Source: Nitrospira sp. (GTDB taxonomy: Bacteria > Nitrospirota > Nitrospiria > Nitrospirales > Nitrospiraceae). Taken from it: DNA of 37,177 nt. The notes under the pieces are model-generated. The model saw only the letters and a program-made list of their open reading frames with translations, was not told the DNA's origin and searched no databases. The translations under genes were made by a program, and so were the position numbers. Positions 1 to 9,398 of this stretch are shown here, in pieces. Position 1 is the stretch's first letter; each line of letters opens with the position of its first letter. The stretch covers positions 1 to 37,177 of the forward strand of contig JAEURV010000102.1 in assembly GCA_016788465.1 (NCBI GenBank). The letters run 5' to 3'.

Positions 1-3000
1 CGGGTGTGTATAAAGCGCATAGGTACTACCGATAATTTCACGCTCCTCATATCCCGTCAACTCGCACAAGGCTTTGTTGGCGCTGATGGCACGCCAATTG
101 TCATCGAGGATGCAGAGTCCCACCGGGGCATCAGCCACAAAACGCTGGAGTCTGAACTCGCTTAGGCGTAATGCCTCCTCGGCACGCGTTTGCTTGGTCA
201 CGTCTCGGAAACTCCAGACACGTCCTACGATTGTCCCGTCCAACACTTGCGGTCGTGAGTAGCGCTCGAAAACCCGACCATCTTTAAAGCTCAGTACATC
301 GAAACTTTCTTGGTCTGGATGTGCGTACAACTCGTGGACTTTTCGTAAAAACGTTTCCGGTTCCGTGAGCTGGTCCACGACAAAGTTCAGCAGTGCCCCG
401 TCGTCTCCGCTGTCCGTGAGCGTCTGAGGGATGCTCCAGAGGTGCAAGAACCGTTGGTTGGTACTGGTGATTGTTCCCTGTCGATCGACAATCAGTAAGC
501 CGTCTGTGACTGAATTCATGGCGGCTTGCAGCAGTGAGTAGGAACGTTTGCGGTCGGAAATATCGCGAACAAATGAGAAGTAATATTCGCGGCCGTCGAC
601 CACGACAAAGTTTGCCACAACTTCGACGGGGTATGTTTCTCCTGACTTGCCTTGGTGGCGACGTTCAAACCGGATCATGCCCTTCTGGCGCAAGTCTTCC
701 CAATGTGCAGGCCACCGGTCCCACTGACATTCTGGGTCGATGTCTGCCACGGTCATGCCGTGTAGTTCGTCGCGCGTATACCCGAGCCGTTGGCAGGCTG
801 CATCGTTGACGTACAGAAATTTGGCTGATTGGTCGATCCAAAAGATCAGATCGGCAGACCGGTCGACGGCGGTTTGCGCCAACCTCAATGCCTGTTCCGC
901 ACGTCGTTGATCTGTGACGTCGAGTCCGATGGTGACCATGCAGTGTTTGCCGCTCAGTTCTATGTGCTCAGCGGAGATCAAACAAGTCCGGTACTCTCCA
1001 GATTTCATACGGAGTGAAGTCTCCACGTTCCGGACCGATCCGGTTTGCTTCAACTTCGTAACAAACCGATGCCGATGGTCGGGAGTCGGCCACAATCCAA
1101 GCTGCTCGGCTGTTTTTCCGGCGACCTCTTCCCGGTGATATCCGAAGAGGTGAATGGCTGCGTCGTTTGCGTCCAGGCAGAGGCCTGATTCCAATTCGGA
1201 GAGGACAATGGGATAGGGACTGGATCGGAAGGCCTTTGCGAATCGCTCTTCGCTCTCGCGCAGCGCCGCTTCCGCCTGCTTGTGTTCGGTGACATCGTTG
1301 CCGACTGTAATTAAACATGTGGTCCCATTCAGTTCAATGATCTCGCTTGAGACGAGTAATTCACGGACCTTTCGGTCTTTGGTCCTGAGCGAGATCTCAC
1401 GATTGCGGACAGCGCCCTCCTCACGTAATTGCTGAAAGAACCGTCCACGATCTTCAAGTGTTGGCCAAATTCCGAGCATGATGGTCGTCCGGCCGATGAC
1501 TTCGTCGCGTTCATAGCCGAACAACTTCAGCGATGCATCATTGACTTCGAGGCAGCGCCCACTCGCAAGCTCGGTAATGATGACCGGATGAGGGCTTGCA
1601 CGAAAGGCGATCTTGAAACGTTCCTCACTGATGCGGAGCGCTTCTTCGGTCTGCTTCACCGCGGTGATGTCCCGCGCGACACCGACCAATCCTACGACAC
1701 GACCACTCTGATCCCGGTGGGGAGTTTTGATGGTAGCGAATGTCCGAGGGGTTCCGTTCAGCTTGACCAACTCTTCAAAGTTGCGCGGGGCCGACTCAGC
1801 AAACACCTCCTGATCGACGGTCATCAGCCGAGTGGCTCTCTCCTGGGGAAAAAGTTCATCGTCTTTTTTTCCAATGATCTCAGCTTGGGTTTTCCCGATA
1901 TTACGTGCGCTGGCGGAGTTGACGAATCGATACCGACCCTCTCGGTCTTTCATGAAAATCGCATCCGTGGCTGTTTCAATGACCGAGCGCAAGAGGGCTT
2001 CCTGTTCTTTGACTGCCTGTTCGGAGTCATGCCGTGATAGTTCCCCACTGACCCATCGGGCCATCAACTGTAAGAAATCTTTGTCGGCCTGACTAAAACA
2101 GCGTGAATAGGGTTCAGGTCCTGCGAAACAGATAGTTCCGTGGAGCTGCCCTCGGTCCATGAGGGGAGCCCCGATGTAACACTGAAACCCAAACTTCTCG
2201 TGCCCTGGATGCTTGGACCACTTTGAGGTGCTGGCCTGTTCGATTGCAATGAGACTCTTGGATTTGAGCGTCTCGCCACAATAGGTTTCAGCGATAGGGA
2301 AGTGGATGCCCGGTGCCAGAGTTGTGCTTGGGGCCCAGACATGCCGAAGTTTGAGCTGATCACCATCGGCGTCGGTCACGAGACCGATCGGAAGCGAAAA
2401 CCGTCGACACCCAAGTTCCAGGACCGTCTGAATGCGCTCATCGAGGGTGAGTCCGGGATGGGATGTGGCCTCGAGCAATGAGCGAATCGCTTGTTCGCTG
2501 TCGCGCAGTTGCTGCTCAGCTTGTTTCCGTTCATTGATATTTTGAATGACAGCGATGAAATAAGCCGGAGCACCGGAGGTCGCACGGACCAGCGAAACGG
2601 TCACCTCAACCCACAACCAGGTATTGTCGCTCCGACGGAAGCGCTGCTCCACGGAGCATGAGGGCTGTGTGTTGGTGAGCAGCTCATCCAGGCAACTCAT
2701 ATTGGCGGAAGGGTCGTCCGGATGGGTGAACTCTTGAAATGTCCGCTGAAGCATCGTGTCCGGTGAGTACCCCAATGTCTCACAGAGCTGAGGGTTTATC
2801 CTGATGAATCGACCGCTCACGTCAAGCTGGGCGATACCTACCCCTGCCTGTTCGTAGAACGCTCTCCAGCGTGCCTCCTTCTCCCGAAGCTGTTCTTCGG
2901 CATTACGATGTTCCGTGATGTCTTCACAGGAGACGAGGACGACGAGCTGCTTGGCTTGGTCGTGAACGGCTCTGGCTCGTTCCTTAACCCATAGCTTCGT

Positions 3001-3864
3001 CCCGTCCTTTCTGATCTTTTGAACGTCCCACTGAAACGGTGTGTACGGGCGTGCCGCACAGGCGTGCAGCTGTTCAAGTATCGCCTGGTGGTCCTTCCCT
3101 TCAAACAGAGTCAGGATAGAATGACCAATGAGGTCTTCCTTCTCGTACCCAAGTTGACCCGCTCCGAAATGATTAACGGAGATCACGGTTCCGTCAGGCA
3201 ACAGCGTAAAGTACATGGAGGGGTTGTGCTCATAAAGCAATTGATAGCGCTGTTCACTTGATTTGAGTGAAGATTCAATCTGCTGTTTTTGCTCAAGGTG
3301 ATTCTTGAGATCTAGGATAGCCTGCTCCAGTCCTGCCGTTCGTTCTTGCACGAGTGCTTCCAAGGTTTCTCGAACCGCGTGCTGAGTGAGCTCGAATTCT
3401 TTACGGGCAGTGATATCTTCAACAGTGCCCATCATGTCAGAAATCGGTTCGTTTCCACCGCGCGTAGCGCGACCGCGGCAGGCCACCCACCGAGTCATTC
3501 CAGAAGGAGTAATGATGCGGTGTTCTATTCTCAAGGGAGCATGGTCCTCAACCACCTTTGCAATGGCATCACTGAGGCGGTGGCGGTCATCCGGATGCAC
3601 GAGGGCAAAAAACCCTTCGTAGGAGCCATCAAAAGTTCCGGGAGAAAGGTCGAAGATCTGCTCTGTTTCCGACGACCATCTCACTCGATTGGTCCTTCTG
3701 TCCCACTCCCACGTCCCCACTTGTCCAGCTACGGAAGCCATAGTTTCCGTTGAAGGACCGCCTTGTTTCATCTGAACAAGGGCCTGCTGCAGCTCAAGAG
3801 TCTGGTGACGTTGTGTGGCAAGCTTGTGGAGCGGTGAGCCGTCCTCCTCAAACAATGAATTCAT
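1..3864 (-). CDS. Multi-PAS/GAF sensor protein, probable hybrid or histidine kinase (C-terminus outside window)
   Basis: This reading frame is open from an ATG at 3864 to the window edge, giving at least 1288 residues with no stop. An AGAGG lies 9 bases before the ATG. By eye the domains are PAS at about 45-160, PAS at 208-320, PAS at 330-450, GAF at about 470-605 (with a typical CGETL-type segment), then six more PAS domains starting near 622, 748, 873, 995, 1108 and 1233, joined by E-x-R-x-K-Q-A-E coiled linkers. The PAS domains near 748 and 873 resemble each other closely and look like a tandem duplication. No membrane segment is seen, so it is probably cytoplasmic. No kinase, GGDEF or receiver domain is inside the window; the output domain is expected beyond the left edge. 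It lies 178 bases downstream of a two-component pair on the same strand and may join that pathway. The sensor architecture is clear; the output type is not known. Confidence 0.85.
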   Translation of the reverse strand, partial: MNSLFEEDGSPLHKLATQRHQTLELQQALVQMKQGGPSTETMASVAGQVGTWEWDRRTNRVRWSSETEQIFDLSPGTFDGSYEGFFALVHPDDRHRLSDAIAKVVEDHAPLRIEHRIITPSGMTRWVACRGRATRGGNEPISDMMGTVEDITARKEFELTQHAVRETLEALVQERTAGLEQAILDLKNHLEQKQQIESSLKSSEQRYQLLYEHNPSMYFTLLPDGTVISVNHFGAGQLGYEKEDLIGHSILTLFEGKDHQAILEQLHACAARPYTPFQWDVQKIRKDGTKLWVKERARAVHDQAKQLVVLVSCEDITEHRNAEEQLREKEARWRAFYEQAGVGIAQLDVSGRFIRINPQLCETLGYSPDTMLQRTFQEFTHPDDPSANMSCLDELLTNTQPSCSVEQRFRRSDNTWLWVEVTVSLVRATSGAPAYFIAVIQNINERKQAEQQLRDSEQAIRSLLEATSHPGLTLDERIQTVLELGCRRFSLPIGLVTDADGDQLKLRHVWAPSTTLAPGIHFPIAETYCGETLKSKSLIAIEQASTSKWSKHPGHEKFGFQCYIGAPLMDRGQLHGTICFAGPEPYSRCFSQADKDFLQLMARWVSGELSRHDSEQAVKEQEALLRSVIETATDAIFMKDREGRYRFVNSASARNIGKTQAEIIGKKDDELFPQERATRLMTVDQEVFAESAPRNFEELVKLNGTPRTFATIKTPHRDQSGRVVGLVGVARDITAVKQTEEALRISEERFKIAFRASPHPVIITELASGRCLEVNDASLKLFGYERDEVIGRTTIMLGIWPTLEDRGRFFQQLREEGAVRNREISLRTKDRKVRELLVSSEIIELNGTTCLITVGNDVTEHKQAEAALRESEERFAKAFRSSPYPIVLSELESGLCLDANDAAIHLFGYHREEVAGKTAEQLGLWPTPDHRHRFVTKLKQTGSVRNVETSLRMKSGEYRTCLISAEHIELSGKHCMVTIGLDVTDQRRAEQALRLAQTAVDRSADLIFWIDQSAKFLYVNDAACQRLGYTRDELHGMTVADIDPECQWDRWPAHWEDLRQKGMIRFERRHQGKSGETYPVEVVANFVVVDGREYYFSFVRDISDRKRSYSLLQAAMNSVTDGLLIVDRQGTITSTNQRFLHLWSIPQTLTDSGDDGALLNFVVDQLTEPETFLRKVHELYAHPDQESFDVLSFKDGRVFERYSRPQVLDGTIVGRVWSFRDVTKQTRAEEALRLSEFRLQRFVADAPVGLCILDDNWRAISANKALCELTGYEEREIIGSTYALYTHP

Positions 3865-4042: not shown

Positions 4043-4723
4043 TCAGAGTTTCGGGCTTGGCGCAATACCAGGCATATGAGATTCCTTCATGAACCAGGCG
4101 ACTGCTTCGGTACGTCGTTTGACATGGAGCTTGTCGAATATATTCGCGAGGTAGTTCTTGACGGTCTTATCGCTCAAGCGTAGGTGAACGGCAATTTCTT
4201 TATTGGTTTTCCCTTCCGCAAGAAGTGGAAGAATCAAACGTTCTTGTGGAGAGAGCCGAGAGACTCCTTGTGAGGTGACTCCCAAGTGTGAGCTGGTCCG
4301 AATCCAATGCAGCGCCTGCTGTGTCACTCGGGGATCGAGGTAGCCCTGGCCGGAGGCGACGGTGCGAATGGCCCGAATGAGATCATCCATACGGACATCT
4401 TTGAGCACATAACCATGGGCGCCATTCTGGACGGCAGCCATCACTGTCGTATCTTCTGCGTAGCTGGTGAGGATAAGAATCCGGATTTTTGGCGAAACGG
4501 CCAGCAAACGGCGGATGGCTTCCGTAACGGTGGCATCGGGGAGTTTGACATCAAGCAAAACCATCTGGGGTGTGAGGCGTTCGACGAGAGCCACGCCGCT
4601 GGCGACGCTTGCGGCCTCGCCCACAATGGCCAGATCCCCCTCGAGATGGAGGAGCGCACGCAGTCCCCGGCGGACCATTTCATGATCGTCGATGAGTACG
4701 ATGCTGGTTTGTGGTTGTTTCAT
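4043..4723 (-). CDS. NarL/FixJ-family response regulator
   Basis: A 226-residue two-domain transcription regulator. The receiver domain (about 7-125) has the acidic pair D12/D13, the phospho-acceptor D58 in VLLDVK, T86/S87 and K108. A LuxR-type helix-turn-helix follows at about 157-215 (LSPQERLILPLLAEGKTNKE, then the recognition helix around SDKTVKNYLANI). The length is typical of the NarL/DevR group. Its ATG overlaps the stop of the upstream histidine kinase gene by 4 bases (ATGA), implying translational coupling and a cognate pair. Phosphorylation by that kinase should drive dimerisation and DNA binding. The targets cannot be read from sequence; the neighbouring multi-PAS gene and the dyads at 5696-5715 and 5850-5875 are candidates. 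It is unlikely to be an AHL receptor because it has a receiver domain and no autoinducer-binding domain. Confidence 0.93.
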   Translation of the reverse strand: MKQPQTSIVLIDDHEMVRRGLRALLHLEGDLAIVGEAASVASGVALVERLTPQMVLLDVKLPDATVTEAIRRLLAVSPKIRILILTSYAEDTTVMAAVQNGAHGYVLKDVRMDDLIRAIRTVASGQGYLDPRVTQQALHWIRTSSHLGVTSQGVSRLSPQERLILPLLAEGKTNKEIAVHLRLSDKTVKNYLANIFDKLHVKRRTEAVAWFMKESHMPGIAPSPKL

Positions 4724-5544
4724 ATAGTTGCCAGTAAGGGTTCTAAGGAAAATTCGACCATGATCTGCGTGCCTTTTCCTGTCCGAGACTGTACACGTAA
4801 CGTCCCACCAAGTCTCTTGGCACGCGTCTCCATGTTGGTCAGTCCATAGCCACGTGACGGTCCTGGAACCTGAGTAAAGCCAATGCCGTCATCGTGAATG
4901 CTGATTCGGATTCTTGTTCCCTTCATGCGAATCGAGACAGCGACCTGGGTTGCATGGGCGTGGCGGACACAGTTGCTGAGGGCTTCGCGAACAATATTCA
5001 GGATCTCCCGCTCTTCCTCGCTCGTGAGAACCTCGATTGCGTTGCGATGAAGATCAAGTTTTACCTGTAGTCGTCCTGATTGTTCATAGACCGTACACAG
5101 TGTTGAGAGTTCCGATGACAGGTCGAACTCCTGAACGGTCCCTGACTCTAACTCCCGAATCATCCCACGGACTTCATGAATCAGTTGGTTGATCTGCTGG
5201 ACTATTCGGTCGTTGAGCTCTGTTGTGTCCGTTGTTTGATCGCGTGAGACCCGCCGCGCCATTTCAACATTCAGACCAATGGCATATAAGGATTGCAACA
5301 GAGAATCATGCAGATCGCGACCGATACGGGATCGGTCTTCCAATAGTCTTCTCAAACGGCCTTCGGTTGCGTTGAACGCAGTGGATAATTCGCCGGCGTA
5401 AGGCTTGAATTGGTAGAGGTCGGCTGATTCTTTAGATGGGCACACGGCTGGCGGGGGAGACAATGCTCCGCTTGACCGAAGTCCCCCGTCCAAAAGCTGT
5501 AAACCGGCTTTGCCTTCCGTCACGCTGGTGTCTCTCCATTTCAT
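4720..5544 (-). CDS. Soluble NarX/DegS-type sensor histidine kinase
   Basis: A histidine kinase of the HisKA_3 plus HATPase_c type, about 274 residues. Numbered from the upstream in-frame ATG at 5550, the phospho-acceptor H81 lies in RDLHDSLLQSLYAIG, the N box has N193 in REALSNCVRHAHA, the DDGIGF motif is at 220-225, and a GYGL lid motif is at 234-237. I prefer the ATG at 5544 because AGGGGA sits 6 bases before it, whereas it abuts the ATG at 5550. The first 65 residues hold no recognisable sensor domain and no membrane helix, so the kinase is cytoplasmic and either senses through an unknown N-terminus or takes input from a partner. It is coupled to the downstream response regulator by a 4-base overlap. 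A lux-box dyad lies 71 bases upstream, placing the pair under likely quorum control. Confidence 0.92.
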   Translation of the reverse strand: MKWRDTSVTEGKAGLQLLDGGLRSSGALSPPPAVCPSKESADLYQFKPYAGELSTAFNATEGRLRRLLEDRSRIGRDLHDSLLQSLYAIGLNVEMARRVSRDQTTDTTELNDRIVQQINQLIHEVRGMIRELESGTVQEFDLSSELSTLCTVYEQSGRLQVKLDLHRNAIEVLTSEEEREILNIVREALSNCVRHAHATQVAVSIRMKGTRIRISIHDDGIGFTQVPGPSRGYGLTNMETRAKRLGGTLRVQSRTGKGTQIMVEFSLEPLLATI

Positions 5545-5614
5545 AATCATTCCCCTGTTGAGTTAAGGCTAACCCGCACAGTTCGACCTTGTACGCTAGC
5601 AAGGCACGGAATGC

Positions 5615-5634
5615 ACCTGGCGGATACGCCAGGT
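5615..5634 (-). promoter_or_regulatory. lux box A (LuxR operator) facing the kinase operon
   Basis: The 20-mer ACCTGGCGGATACGCCAGGT is a perfect dyad with 8-base arms around GATA; two further bases on each side extend the symmetry to 10-base arms. It fits the classical lux-box pattern of NNCT, 12 bases, AGNN. If centred near -42.5, transcription leftwards would start near 5582, with a TACAAG -10-like hexamer at 5588-5593 and the kinase ATG at 5544. A luxI and a luxR gene within 3 kb make LuxR binding the natural reading. Binding itself is inferred. Confidence 0.75.
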
Positions 5635-5695
5635 GCCGTTAAACGCTACTAATAGAGCGCTTTCGGCATTGGAACCCTACAGGACGACACGAGAG

Positions 5696-5715
5696 GCTCT
5701 CAAAGTATTGAGAGC
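5696..5715. promoter_or_regulatory. Inverted repeat of unknown role between the lux boxes
   Basis: GCTCTCAA-AGTA-TTGAGAGC is a perfect 8+8 dyad with a 4-base centre, the same geometry as the lux boxes but a different sequence. No T-run follows on either strand, so it is not an obvious intrinsic terminator. It could be an operator for a second dimeric regulator, such as the adjacent NarL-type protein, or an RNA hairpin. This rests on symmetry alone. Confidence 0.45.
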
Positions 5716-5849
5716 GCCCTTCTCACCCGCGCGCAAGTGAGTCATAAGCAGGCACTCGTAAAAATGGCCCATATGGACCTATGCATGAATACGCATATCT
5801 CGCTTTAATCCGGGCCTTGCAAGCATGCAGTTCCCCCAGTCTAGCAGCC

Positions 5850-5875
5850 AGTACTTGTACCTTCAGTACTTATAC
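5850..5875. repeat. Tandem 11-base direct repeat upstream of lux box B
   Basis: AGTACTTGTAC (5850-5860) and AGTACTTATAC (5865-5875) differ at one base and are 15 bases apart. They end about 20 bases before lux box B. Such spacing could bind two regulator protomers upstream of the luxI promoter, but the function is unknown. Confidence 0.4.
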
Positions 5876-5894
5876 GTCCGAATCCTAGTAAAGA

Positions 5895-5914
5895 ACCTGG
5901 CGGACACGCCAGGT
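5895..5914 (+). promoter_or_regulatory. lux box B (LuxR operator) facing luxI
   Basis: The 20-mer ACCTGGCGGACACGCCAGGT has the same 8-base arms as lux box A, with GACA instead of GATA at the centre. It ends 111 bases before the luxI start codon. A centre at -42.5 would put the luxI transcription start near 5947, with a GAGTAT hexamer at about the -10 position. This arrangement predicts LuxR/AHL autoinduction of luxI. Confidence 0.78.
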
Positions 5915-6025: not shown

Positions 6026-6811
6026 ATGCAGGCACTTGAGATGGGAGTAGACAGGGCAATCGCATTTAATGAGGAAGGCCTCCAGGTCAGGACGCTCGAA
6101 GGCAAAGCGGATATGATTCAGGCGTACAAGTTGCGGCATCGCGTGTTTGCAGAACAGCTTCAATGGGTTCCCAAGAATCATCATGGGTTGGAGTTTGATG
6201 CGTACGATGCGTTTGCAACATCGATTGGCCTATTCGACGTGAATAGTGTGCTTCGTGGGGTGTTTCGGATGGTGAATTCGTCGTTCCCATTCATGCTTGA
6301 AGACGAATTCCGCACCTGTCTGCTCCCGACGTGTGAAGTCCGGAAATCACCAGAGGCGGCGGAGATAACGAGGTTAGCGGTTGATCCGATGTTGACCGAT
6401 AAAGGTCTTTCCAATCGTGTGATGCAGGTTCTCTTTAAAGGTGTCTACCAGTGGTCGATGCACAATGATGTGCGCTATTTGTATATGGTTGTTGAAAAGC
6501 GATTCCTGCGGGTACTGCGGGGGATGGGTTTTACATGCGAGGCCATCAGTCCCGCCGTGTCTCTTCCTCCGGCGCAGGCAGTTTCGATTGCCGCAGTGCT
6601 TGATTGGGAACAGTTTCATCATAGCTGTCCCCAGCAACAACCGTCTTTTTATCGTTGGATGAACGCCATTGATGGTACTCAGTCGTTCGCACGGAGTGGG
6701 TTTGCCGCTAAGGATTCTAAGGAAGGCTACGGTAAGCCGCACTCTTGCCACCAGGGCCTGCGTAACCACCAGGCGCAAGTAGAAGCACCCGGTGCACTGG
6801 TAGCAGCGTAG
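6026..6811 (+). CDS. luxI: LuxI-family acyl-homoserine-lactone synthase
   Basis: LuxI enzymes make acyl-homoserine lactones from S-adenosylmethionine and acyl-ACP in the cytoplasm. The protein is 261 residues with a GNAT-like core. The family's invariant residues appear with correct spacing: R37, F41 and W47 in LRHRVFAEQLQW, D58 and D61 in EFDAYD, R81, and E113 and R116 in EITRLAV. AAAGGAG lies just before the ATG. The core ends near residue 212; the last 45 or so residues are polar, contain His and Cys, and extend beyond the usual 190-225-residue length. Lux box B precedes the gene and luxR converges on it, separated by a hairpin. The acyl chain length cannot be read from sequence. No other family fits as well. 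Confidence 0.92.
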   Translation: MQALEMGVDRAIAFNEEGLQVRTLEGKADMIQAYKLRHRVFAEQLQWVPKNHHGLEFDAYDAFATSIGLFDVNSVLRGVFRMVNSSFPFMLEDEFRTCLLPTCEVRKSPEAAEITRLAVDPMLTDKGLSNRVMQVLFKGVYQWSMHNDVRYLYMVVEKRFLRVLRGMGFTCEAISPAVSLPPAQAVSIAAVLDWEQFHHSCPQQQPSFYRWMNAIDGTQSFARSGFAAKDSKEGYGKPHSCHQGLRNHQAQVEAPGALVAA

Positions 6812-6842: not shown

Positions 6843-7778
6843 TTACATATTGGGGAATAGACCCTGTTCTATGGCACAGGCGACTGCCTGAGTACGGGAA
6901 CCGACATCAAGTTTCTCGAAGATGCCTTCAACGTGAAAACGAACGGTTCGTTCGCTAACGCCAATGATGCGCGATATCTCCCAGTTCGTCTTTCCTTGTT
7001 TCATCCACTCGAGCACAGTCAATTCACGCTGCGAAAGTCCCTTTACACGGTTGGTGGAAGGGGTGTGCACATTTGAAATCAGGATTCGGTGGAAATAGGG
7101 AAGGAGGTATTCGAGCAATTTTTTGTATCGCAGGTTGTAGGCAAGCTCGCCACCGGCAAAAGAAAAAAATGAGGCGAAGTTTCGGCCTGGTTCGAGCATC
7201 CCAATAGTAATTCCATGTGTGAGGCCGTAAGAACGAGCCTCTTCTACGAATTCTAGTTGCTTCGCGGAACTGGCACCCTTGTAGCTCTGCTCCCATACCT
7301 GGGTCTCAAAGGTCGAAAGGGCCGACTGAAGGACGGGGTCGACCGTCGCATATCCCCTGGTGCCATAATGATACAGCCAGTCGTTTGAGTAACTGACATT
7401 GATGACGCTATTGAAGTCCTGGAAGGTCCCTCTGGGGGTTAACTGAGCGATGCCACCAATAACCAACGGGGAGTCCAGTACGTGCTGAACTAGCTGAAGC
7501 AGGTGGTGGACGTCGGTTCCAGTGGTCGCTTGCATTGTATGGTGGAGGATTTCCAGCACACACTGCATCTCATTTTTTGAGAGATCATCAAAAATCTCGG
7601 TCTTAAATGGATGAGTGGGCCCCTTAAGCAAAGAGGGAACCCCAGGGAGAGACTCCCCTGCAAGTTGGGCAGAGGGAGACCCTGTAACGGGGCCCTCTCC
7701 ATTTTGTCGAATGAACGGAAAGACTCGGTGTAGCTGGCTACTAGAAACTGAATTGTTGAGCTTAAGAGCTTCACCCAT
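6843..7778 (-). CDS. luxR: LuxR-family AHL-responsive transcriptional regulator
   Basis: An autoinducer-binding domain followed by a LuxR helix-turn-helix. Numbered from an upstream GTG at 7832, the six ligand-pocket residues conserved in LuxR/TraR appear with LuxR spacing: W152, Y156, D165, P166, W180 and G207. The HTH residues E270, L274 and G280 match the conserved E, L, G positions. I choose the ATG at 7778 (311 residues) because GGAGG lies 10 bases before it. Typical LuxR proteins have about 240 residues, so there is an extra N-terminal segment of about 70 residues; an internal ATG at 7568 would give a standard length but has no ribosome binding site. The gene converges on luxI and is the natural ligand for the two lux boxes. 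Intact pocket residues suggest a functional AHL receptor. Confidence 0.92.
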   Translation of the reverse strand: MGEALKLNNSVSSSQLHRVFPFIRQNGEGPVTGSPSAQLAGESLPGVPSLLKGPTHPFKTEIFDDLSKNEMQCVLEILHHTMQATTGTDVHHLLQLVQHVLDSPLVIGGIAQLTPRGTFQDFNSVINVSYSNDWLYHYGTRGYATVDPVLQSALSTFETQVWEQSYKGASSAKQLEFVEEARSYGLTHGITIGMLEPGRNFASFFSFAGGELAYNLRYKKLLEYLLPYFHRILISNVHTPSTNRVKGLSQRELTVLEWMKQGKTNWEISRIIGVSERTVRFHVEGIFEKLDVGSRTQAVACAIEQGLFPNM

Positions 7779-8042
7779 GGCGGCAGAACCTCCAAAGAGG
7801 CGAATAGTTGGGGTTGGGACTGACGGTCCCACAATGTACGCATCCTGAAAGCCAAGATCAACAAGGAAATATGAAAATATTGGCCCCCTCGCTTTGGAGG
7901 AGTAATTGGTCTCAGTAGGTACATTTAGCTCTATGTCGGCGTTTCCGTATGGCGCTATCCTGAATGCGTATTCTCTGTAAGACAGTACATGCCATCGTTT
8001 AGGCAGGATGTTTCCTTGTTGACCTAGTGGAGTACCTGTTCT

Positions 8043-9398
8043 TTGCGTCTCCTACTCTGCACACTGATGGGAGTCGTCACCGTAGTAACGTGGTCGGCGG
8101 CTCATGCTCAGGCTCTTCGCTTTCAACCACAGGGGGCTGGAGCTGCCGGTCAAGGAAATGCCTTCGCAGCGCAAGCTGATGATGCCTCAGCCATCTACCA
8201 TAATCCTGCAGGTCTGACGCAGGTTCAAGGTATTCAGATGGTCTTTGGTATTGCCTTGGTGGGCGGTTCTATCAAGGCTAAGAGCGCTACGGGACTGGAT
8301 ACACGAGGAGACTACGGGGGAAGTGTCAGCTTCCCTCCTCCGGGACATACATACCTTAGTGCGAATCTTGGCGCGATTGGAAATCCGAGATTCTCAGCTT
8401 TCACAATCGGGCTGGGGCTGACCTCGCCCTTCGGCTTGAGGGTCAGGTTCCCCGTCGACAGTCCCTTTAAGACAGCCGTGACATCGGCGGAGTTGCCACT
8501 CATCGCGATCAAGCCGACGATTGCCTATAAGATAAGCGATGCTCTTTCTGTTGGTGTGAGCGCTGATATTTATACGTTTGCGAGCTTTCTGGGTGAAGGG
8601 CATGTCGAACAAAAGCAAATCAGTGCAGGGAGTCCAGGCATTCCAGCCGGAGCAGAAGTTGAGTTGAACGGGTCTGGTACAGGAGCGGGAGTGACGGCCA
8701 GTCTCCTCTATACCCCTTTTAGAAATGAGGCAGGGAAGCCTATCGTTTCTGTCGGACTGGTCTATCGCAGTCAGTCCGTGCTTCCGTTGAATGGTGCATT
8801 GCTTGTCAGCGGAGTGAAGCTTGCTGATGCGTCAACGGATTTGGTGCTGCCACAGATGGCTAAGGGGGCCATTGCCTTTTGGCCGGTACGTACGAATGAG
8901 CGTGAGTGGAAGGTAGAGCTGGACGTGGAGTATGTCGGGTGGAGCTCTAATAGAAATCTCGATGTCCGAATATCGAATGGTGGAACAATTCCCCAGCTCC
9001 AACAGTGGAAGAATGTGCCGGTGGTTGCACTCGGTACCGAATATCGATGGTTGAATCCACGGTGGCTGTCAGATTGGGAGGTGGCCGTTCGATCAGGGTA
9101 TACCTATACGGGAGATCCTGTCCCTGATCGGACCTTTAATCCCGGTATCATCTCATTGCCCGCCCATACACTATCGCTTGGCTTAGGTTTTCACTGTACG
9201 GGCGCTGGTCGATTGCTTGGGATAATCCCTTGCAGCGGGGATTCAGCCTTCTGGCCGAAAGGGATTGGGTTTGATCTTGCGTATCAGGAATGGTTTTATG
9301 AGGCCCGTACGGTTGTCGGGAACCTAAATCCAACAGTAGACGGGACCTATCACGCCTTTGTGCATTTGGGAACGTTTAGTTTTCGGTATCTGTATTAG
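8043..9398 (+). CDS. fadL: FadL/OMPP1/TodX-family outer-membrane transporter
   Basis: FadL-type beta barrels carry long-chain fatty acids and other hydrophobic molecules across the outer membrane. The 451-residue protein has a signal peptide (about 1-22, ending AHA) and the family's N-terminal signature GQGNAFAAQADDASAIYHNP followed by AGL (37-58). The rest alternates polar and aromatic strands and ends with F-R-Y-L-Y, as is usual for outer-membrane barrels. The start is TTG at 8043: an in-frame stop lies at about 8022, GGAG precedes the TTG, and the next ATG (residue 9) would leave a poor signal peptide. It is divergent from luxR, with about 264 bases between the two starts, and ends 19 bases from the convergent uvrC. 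The substrate is unknown; proximity to luxI and luxR makes a hydrophobic AHL a reasonable guess. Confidence 0.88.
   Translation: MRLLLCTLMGVVTVVTWSAAHAQALRFQPQGAGAAGQGNAFAAQADDASAIYHNPAGLTQVQGIQMVFGIALVGGSIKAKSATGLDTRGDYGGSVSFPPPGHTYLSANLGAIGNPRFSAFTIGLGLTSPFGLRVRFPVDSPFKTAVTSAELPLIAIKPTIAYKISDALSVGVSADIYTFASFLGEGHVEQKQISAGSPGIPAGAEVELNGSGTGAGVTASLLYTPFRNEAGKPIVSVGLVYRSQSVLPLNGALLVSGVKLADASTDLVLPQMAKGAIAFWPVRTNEREWKVELDVEYVGWSSNRNLDVRISNGGTIPQLQQWKNVPVVALGTEYRWLNPRWLSDWEVAVRSGYTYTGDPVPDRTFNPGIISLPAHTLSLGLGFHCTGAGRLLGIIPCSGDSAFWPKGIGFDLAYQEWFYEARTVVGNLNPTVDGTYHAFVHLGTFSFRYLY

Follow-up and report, generated by a model that had tools for sequence, protein, structure and literature searches.

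In the Nitrospira genome studied here, a gene pair encoding a histidine kinase and a NarL-type response regulator is very likely under direct LuxR control, and cell-cell signalling probably sets how much of this second sensing circuit is made. Gene order, box geometry and comparison with relatives lead us to hold with good confidence that LuxR-AHL activates the kinase-regulator operon from a lux box (box A) centred near -43, and that quorum sensing in this way determines how much of a phosphorylation circuit is present. The window, the whole stretch of 37,177 nucleotides that was analysed, is contig C201 of a 3.7-Mb genome (99% complete), and its nearest named relative is Nitrospira sp. ACE_NIT7 (91% identity in the kinase). 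Nitrospira is a dominant nitrite oxidiser and includes comammox species. For quorum sensing in the genus, the comparison points to a single conserved target, which the cultured N. moscoviensis also has.

The luxI locus and its two lux boxes

The minus strand of the window carries luxR, the kinase, the regulator and a multi-PAS gene, with luxI opposite in direction. The luxI product (6026-6811, plus strand) is a LuxI-type AHL synthase (PF00765 Autoind_synth, 70.8 bits against a cut-off of 24) that aligns with LasI and EsaI. The luxR product (6843-7832, minus strand) has the Autoind_bind and GerE domains of an AHL receptor; its best match among solved structures is CviR (1.3e-37), and the pocket residues W, Y, DP and W are conserved in the CviR alignment. 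It is like LuxR/CviR-type receptors in this architecture and differs from them in belonging to the phylum Nitrospirota and in a strict-box direct regulon that appears limited to one locus.

The kinase (4720-5550, minus strand) combines HisKA_3 and HATPase_c, with the H-box RDLHD at residues 78-82 and intact N, G1 and G2 motifs. Its gene overlaps by 4 bases that of the regulator (4043-4723, minus strand; Pfam and NCBIfam), a Response_reg and GerE protein with the acceptor aspartate in the receiver (LLDVKLPD from residue 56), and the two thus have the kinase motifs and adjacent receiver-GerE regulator of a two-component system. All these Pfam matches lie above their cut-offs. Pfam found no domain N-terminal to residue 73 of the kinase, where the sensor input domain of a HisKA_3/NarL-type system was looked for, and the protein therefore looks soluble and sensor-less. 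The pair shares its kinase catalytic core and regulator architecture with NarX/NarQ-NarL and related HisKA_3 pairs but lacks the membrane and sensor parts of those kinases, and the kinase scores far below the curated cut-offs of named HisKA_3 members. The multi-PAS gene (1-3864, minus strand) starts 178 bases after the regulator and is cut by the contig start. Most relatives have a long PAS-kinase open frame after the regulator, and the intact multi-PAS proteins among them end in HisKA_3 and HATPase_c (Pfam). An earlier note on this DNA had described a soluble kinase-regulator pair with a multi-PAS gene downstream on the same strand, and both descriptions agree with these annotations.

Lux box A (ACCTGGCGGATACGCCAGGT, 5615-5634) is a perfect 8+4+8 palindrome and the predicted operator for the kinase and regulator genes. 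A genome pattern search and locus comparison identified box B (ACCTGGCGGACACGCCAGGT, 5895-5914) upstream of luxI. Apart from boxes A and B the 3.7-Mb genome has no perfect copy; just two further sites have up to two mismatches, both within long open reading frames, which leaves box B as the sole other intergenic site at this threshold. Because of this genome-wide distribution, and because 60/60 genus loci have a box at this position, box A is not a chance match. A search for Vibrio-like lux boxes gave nothing of clear meaning beyond the known site, and no Rfam family was found in the window.

The predicted promoter of the pair (5588-5616, minus strand) consists of a -35-like GTGCAT (5616-5611) that overlaps the end of box A, a 17-base spacer and a -10-like TACAAG (5593-5588). 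From these elements transcription is predicted to start at about 5581, which places the centre of box A near -43, so that a 20-bp palindromic lux box lies near -42 of a target promoter with a predicted start. The activation position proposed in the earlier note is upheld by this geometry and by a TA(C/A)A fixed at +22 in relatives. The note's distance of 71 bases before the operon needs a small correction: the box is upstream as it said, 64 bases from the first ATG (5550) and 70 bases from the second (5544). Both the -35 and the -10 are weak, and a generic sigma-70 scan did not list the promoter because its -10 has no final T. The usual luxI-type -10 is missing from box B both in the window and in the nearest relative, and luxI control may therefore differ in these two.

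Conservation within and beyond the genus

Among 79 genomes of the genus, 62 carry luxI, and in 60 loci the kinase ortholog is divergent from luxI and adjoins it. Between the two genes every one of these loci has a box with no more than one mismatch, and 53 include a perfect one; this answers the earlier note's suggestion to examine conservation of box A at syntenic kinase loci. Outside the luxI-kinase intergenic regions, 775 kb of surrounding sequence held no site with two or fewer mismatches. The cultured N. moscoviensis NSP M-1 has the same arrangement with the box ACCTGGCGGATCAGCCAGGT. One genome (G014) has luxI without an adjacent small kinase and without a box; at this locus (L130, 5364-9793) 19 bases separate luxI from the divergent gene of a multi-PAS kinase of 1006 residues, after which comes a NarL-type regulator.

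A single box is present in 44 of the 60 loci, and two or three boxes in the other 16. On the kinase side of the single-box loci we found a sharp TA(C/A)A peak at positions 22-25 after the box, and on the luxI side an invariant GAC followed by GGAACCATCC. A matrix built from these 44 loci was applied to the 16 held-out multi-box loci, where the kinase-proximal box scored above background (p about 1e-10); box A of the window had the best score among the held-out kinase-proximal boxes (p = 0.0003). In the multi-box loci, the luxI-type -10 marks the luxI-proximal box (p = 0.00016 relative to the other one). By the kinase-type -10, boxes A and B cannot be told apart there (p = 0.39), since box B often has it as well. 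The earlier note had placed a LuxR-AHL circuit above the pair. Control from box A is strongly supported by the box itself, its geometry, synteny, the scarcity of other sites and its persistence after loss of luxI; in most species, judging from the single-box loci, luxI and the pair are controlled from one divergent region that they share, and there is no separate circuit on top of the pair.

The kinase, the regulator and the box persist in five genomes that have no luxI. The box there has one or two mismatches and precedes the kinase open frame by about 50 to 105 bases; the -10 is TATGAT or TATAAT. In four of these genomes a LuxR relative of 180-184 residues is encoded upstream on the same strand, with an intact HTH and without Autoind_bind, and the LuxR relative of the fifth (L133) likewise lacks Autoind_bind. 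The luxI-less genomes fall in more than one place on the kinase tree: L136 is paired with the luxI-bearing L107, and L132, L134 and L135 stand beside the luxI-bearing L115 and L109. Since the box before the kinase is kept where there is no luxI to serve, these loci are the best evidence that the box is part of the kinase operon. The truncated LuxR without an AHL pocket, upstream of the box and kinase, also adjoins a cytochrome P450-like gene in L132, L134, L135 and L136 (at 5.2-5.8 kb, and at 7.6-8.2 kb in L134).

Across 175 genomes of the Nitrospiraceae, a lux-box-type site was detected in 98 and luxI in 92. The 20 loci that we took from four other genera all have the box beside luxI, and the divergent gene is the same type of kinase in 18. 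The two others have a kinase-like protein without a Pfam match (L295) and the NarL-type regulator itself (L294), and GGDEF/EAL was the divergent gene in none of the 20. No stand-alone ortholog of the small kinase was recognisable in the 28 box-less relatives screened. The kinase-luxI arrangement is the rule among luxI-bearing Nitrospiraceae.

Proposed control of the pair and alternative readings

Together with C8-HSL, the LuxR-type NspR1 of a sludge Nitrospira activated two divergent promoters sharing ACCTGGCGGTTCCGCCAGGT, 196.6-fold and 14-fold, the promoter divergent from luxI being the stronger (PMC8553950). LuxR bound the shared box by EMSA with RNA polymerase present, reporter work was done as well, and 61 predicted targets were tested with three found (PMC8553950). 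This system resembles that of the window in its LuxI/LuxR proteins, in a box of the same class and in a divergent promoter, activated there by LuxR with C8-HSL; it differs in having one shared box, Nspbox1, and a divergent gene, 125 bp from it, reported as GGDEF/EAL, not a kinase (PMC8553950). In every locus with the exact ACCTGGCGGTTCCGCCAGGT box that we inspected (L071, L277-L280 and L290) the divergent gene is the kinase, and either the published species differs or its divergent gene was misnamed. N. japonica is reported to produce AHL (PMC5767232), as is cloned NspI (PMC8553950).

The mechanism we propose would begin with AHL made by LuxI binding LuxR. LuxR-AHL would bind box A over the -35 region and recruit RNA polymerase to the promoter with the -10 TACAAG, and a rising signal would raise transcription of the pair (sensor-less kinase, NarL-type regulator) and perhaps also of the multi-PAS kinase. 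Facing the other way, the same class of box would drive luxI, and a single control region would provide both autoinduction and output. Quorum sensing would then set the amount of the cytoplasmic circuit, and its activity would depend on a second cue, probably read by the multi-PAS kinase. The genes, domains and boxes, their geometry and conservation, and the near-restriction of the boxes to this locus are observed; for this organism we infer the sign and size of the effect on the operon, that the PAS gene is co-transcribed, that its kinase may feed the regulator, and what the regulator does.

That the box serves luxI autoinduction only, its place by the kinase being a by-product of divergent gene order, seems improbable to us. 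A single box serves both directions in 44 of the 60 loci and its conservation could come from luxI alone, but the multi-box loci, including the window, have a separate box near the kinase with its own -10, the five luxI-less genomes keep the box before the kinase, and of the two promoters in PMC8553950 the divergent one was stronger. The palindrome might instead be the site of the operon's own NarL-type regulator; both this protein and LuxR have a GerE-type HTH, and the regulator always accompanies the box. The EMSA and reporter results nevertheless assign the box to LuxR (PMC8553950), the box tracks luxI/luxR across genera, and we regard this explanation as highly improbable.

Direct control could also have the opposite sign, with LuxR repressing the pair from box A and AHL relieving the repression. 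Some LuxR-family proteins do act in this EsaR-like manner, and the sign of control is not fixed by sequence alone. Yet the box lies upstream and overlaps the -35, not the -10 or the start, and activation was measured in a relative (PMC8553950), which makes repression very improbable in our view.

Activation by LuxR-AHL would place the amount of a phosphorylation circuit under quorum sensing, a layering that the earlier note called unusual. This was too strong, given precedents (PMC4046655, PMC8553950) and the regular occurrence of the arrangement in luxI-bearing Nitrospiraceae. In Dinoroseobacter shibae, LuxR1/I1 controls CtrA phosphorelay genes, and AHL quorum sensing there likewise sets phosphorelay gene expression (PMC4046655). 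The components differ: CckA, ChpT and CtrA in Dinoroseobacter, and in Nitrospira a HisKA_3/NarL pair next to luxI, the box being shared or adjacent. Neither gene of the window pair is a component of the Roseobacter cascade (CckA, ChpT, CtrA), the kinase being of HisKA_3 and the regulator of NarL type. The passages found in a 2025 Nitrospirales survey list luxI and luxR without mention of the kinase neighbour. Our literature search found the kinase nowhere reported as a Nitrospira target, and an earlier mention in work on Nitrospira AHL genes may exist.

We give about even chances to a broader reading, in which Nitrospiraceae AHL quorum sensing would be a single-output circuit, with the kinase-regulator operon as its only strictly conserved direct target beyond luxI, and cell-cell signalling would act as pure gain control on a second sensing circuit. 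Some lineages would have lost the synthase and the AHL pocket of LuxR and kept the HTH, the box and the operon as an AHL-free wire. The natural series of one shared box, split boxes, and luxI lost with the wire kept allows study of how a signal is coupled to, and uncoupled from, a phosphorylation circuit.

Other candidate sites and neighbouring features

Sites with at most one mismatch lie at the luxI-kinase locus in nearly all of the 79 genomes, and about five lie elsewhere (three of them listed individually, two deduced from the counts for G068 and G077); a reversed-pattern control gave three, which puts these sites at control level. These are pattern searches with up to three mismatches, and direct sites of lower similarity may exist; within that scope, and luxI aside, the pair appears to be the principal and perhaps the sole direct target that is strictly conserved. 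A recurrent two-mismatch site, ATCTGGCGNNCNTGCCAGGT, found in most of 12 genomes, was considered as a second target and rejected; it is coding here (IWRACQV, within a 759-codon open stretch).

The spacer between boxes A and B (5635-5894) has features of its own. A kinase-type -10, TATAAG (5869-5874, minus strand), identified by matrix and geometry comparison, points left from box B into the spacer, and a terminator-like hairpin lies at 5779-5766 (minus strand). Between the boxes there is also a third perfect 8+4+8 palindrome, GCTCTCAAAGTATTGAGAGC (5696-5715), unique in the genome. We rejected it as an operator of the regulator; outside the window it occurs only in the nearest relative, and near-matches to it are no commoner across the genome than those of a control. 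The spacer may be either a vestigial duplicated promoter or the source of a LuxR-driven short RNA of about 100 nt. Three other loci (L077, L079 and L112), and more weakly L082, have remnants of the kinase 5' coding region between two lux boxes. A small RNA between the boxes was set aside for these four loci, where the remnants (weaker in L082) make a duplicated promoter the explanation of the spacer; in L077, L079 and L112 they are, on their sequence, the trace of a tandem duplication of the box and gene start.

A gene for a FadL-like outer-membrane channel (8043-9398, plus strand) neighbours luxR. It is syntenic in nearly all luxI loci, those of other genera included, and absent at four of the five luxI-less loci. 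FadL has been linked with long-chain AHLs in Sinorhizobium fredii (PMC9938287), and by analogy the FadL-like protein is possibly an AHL channel.
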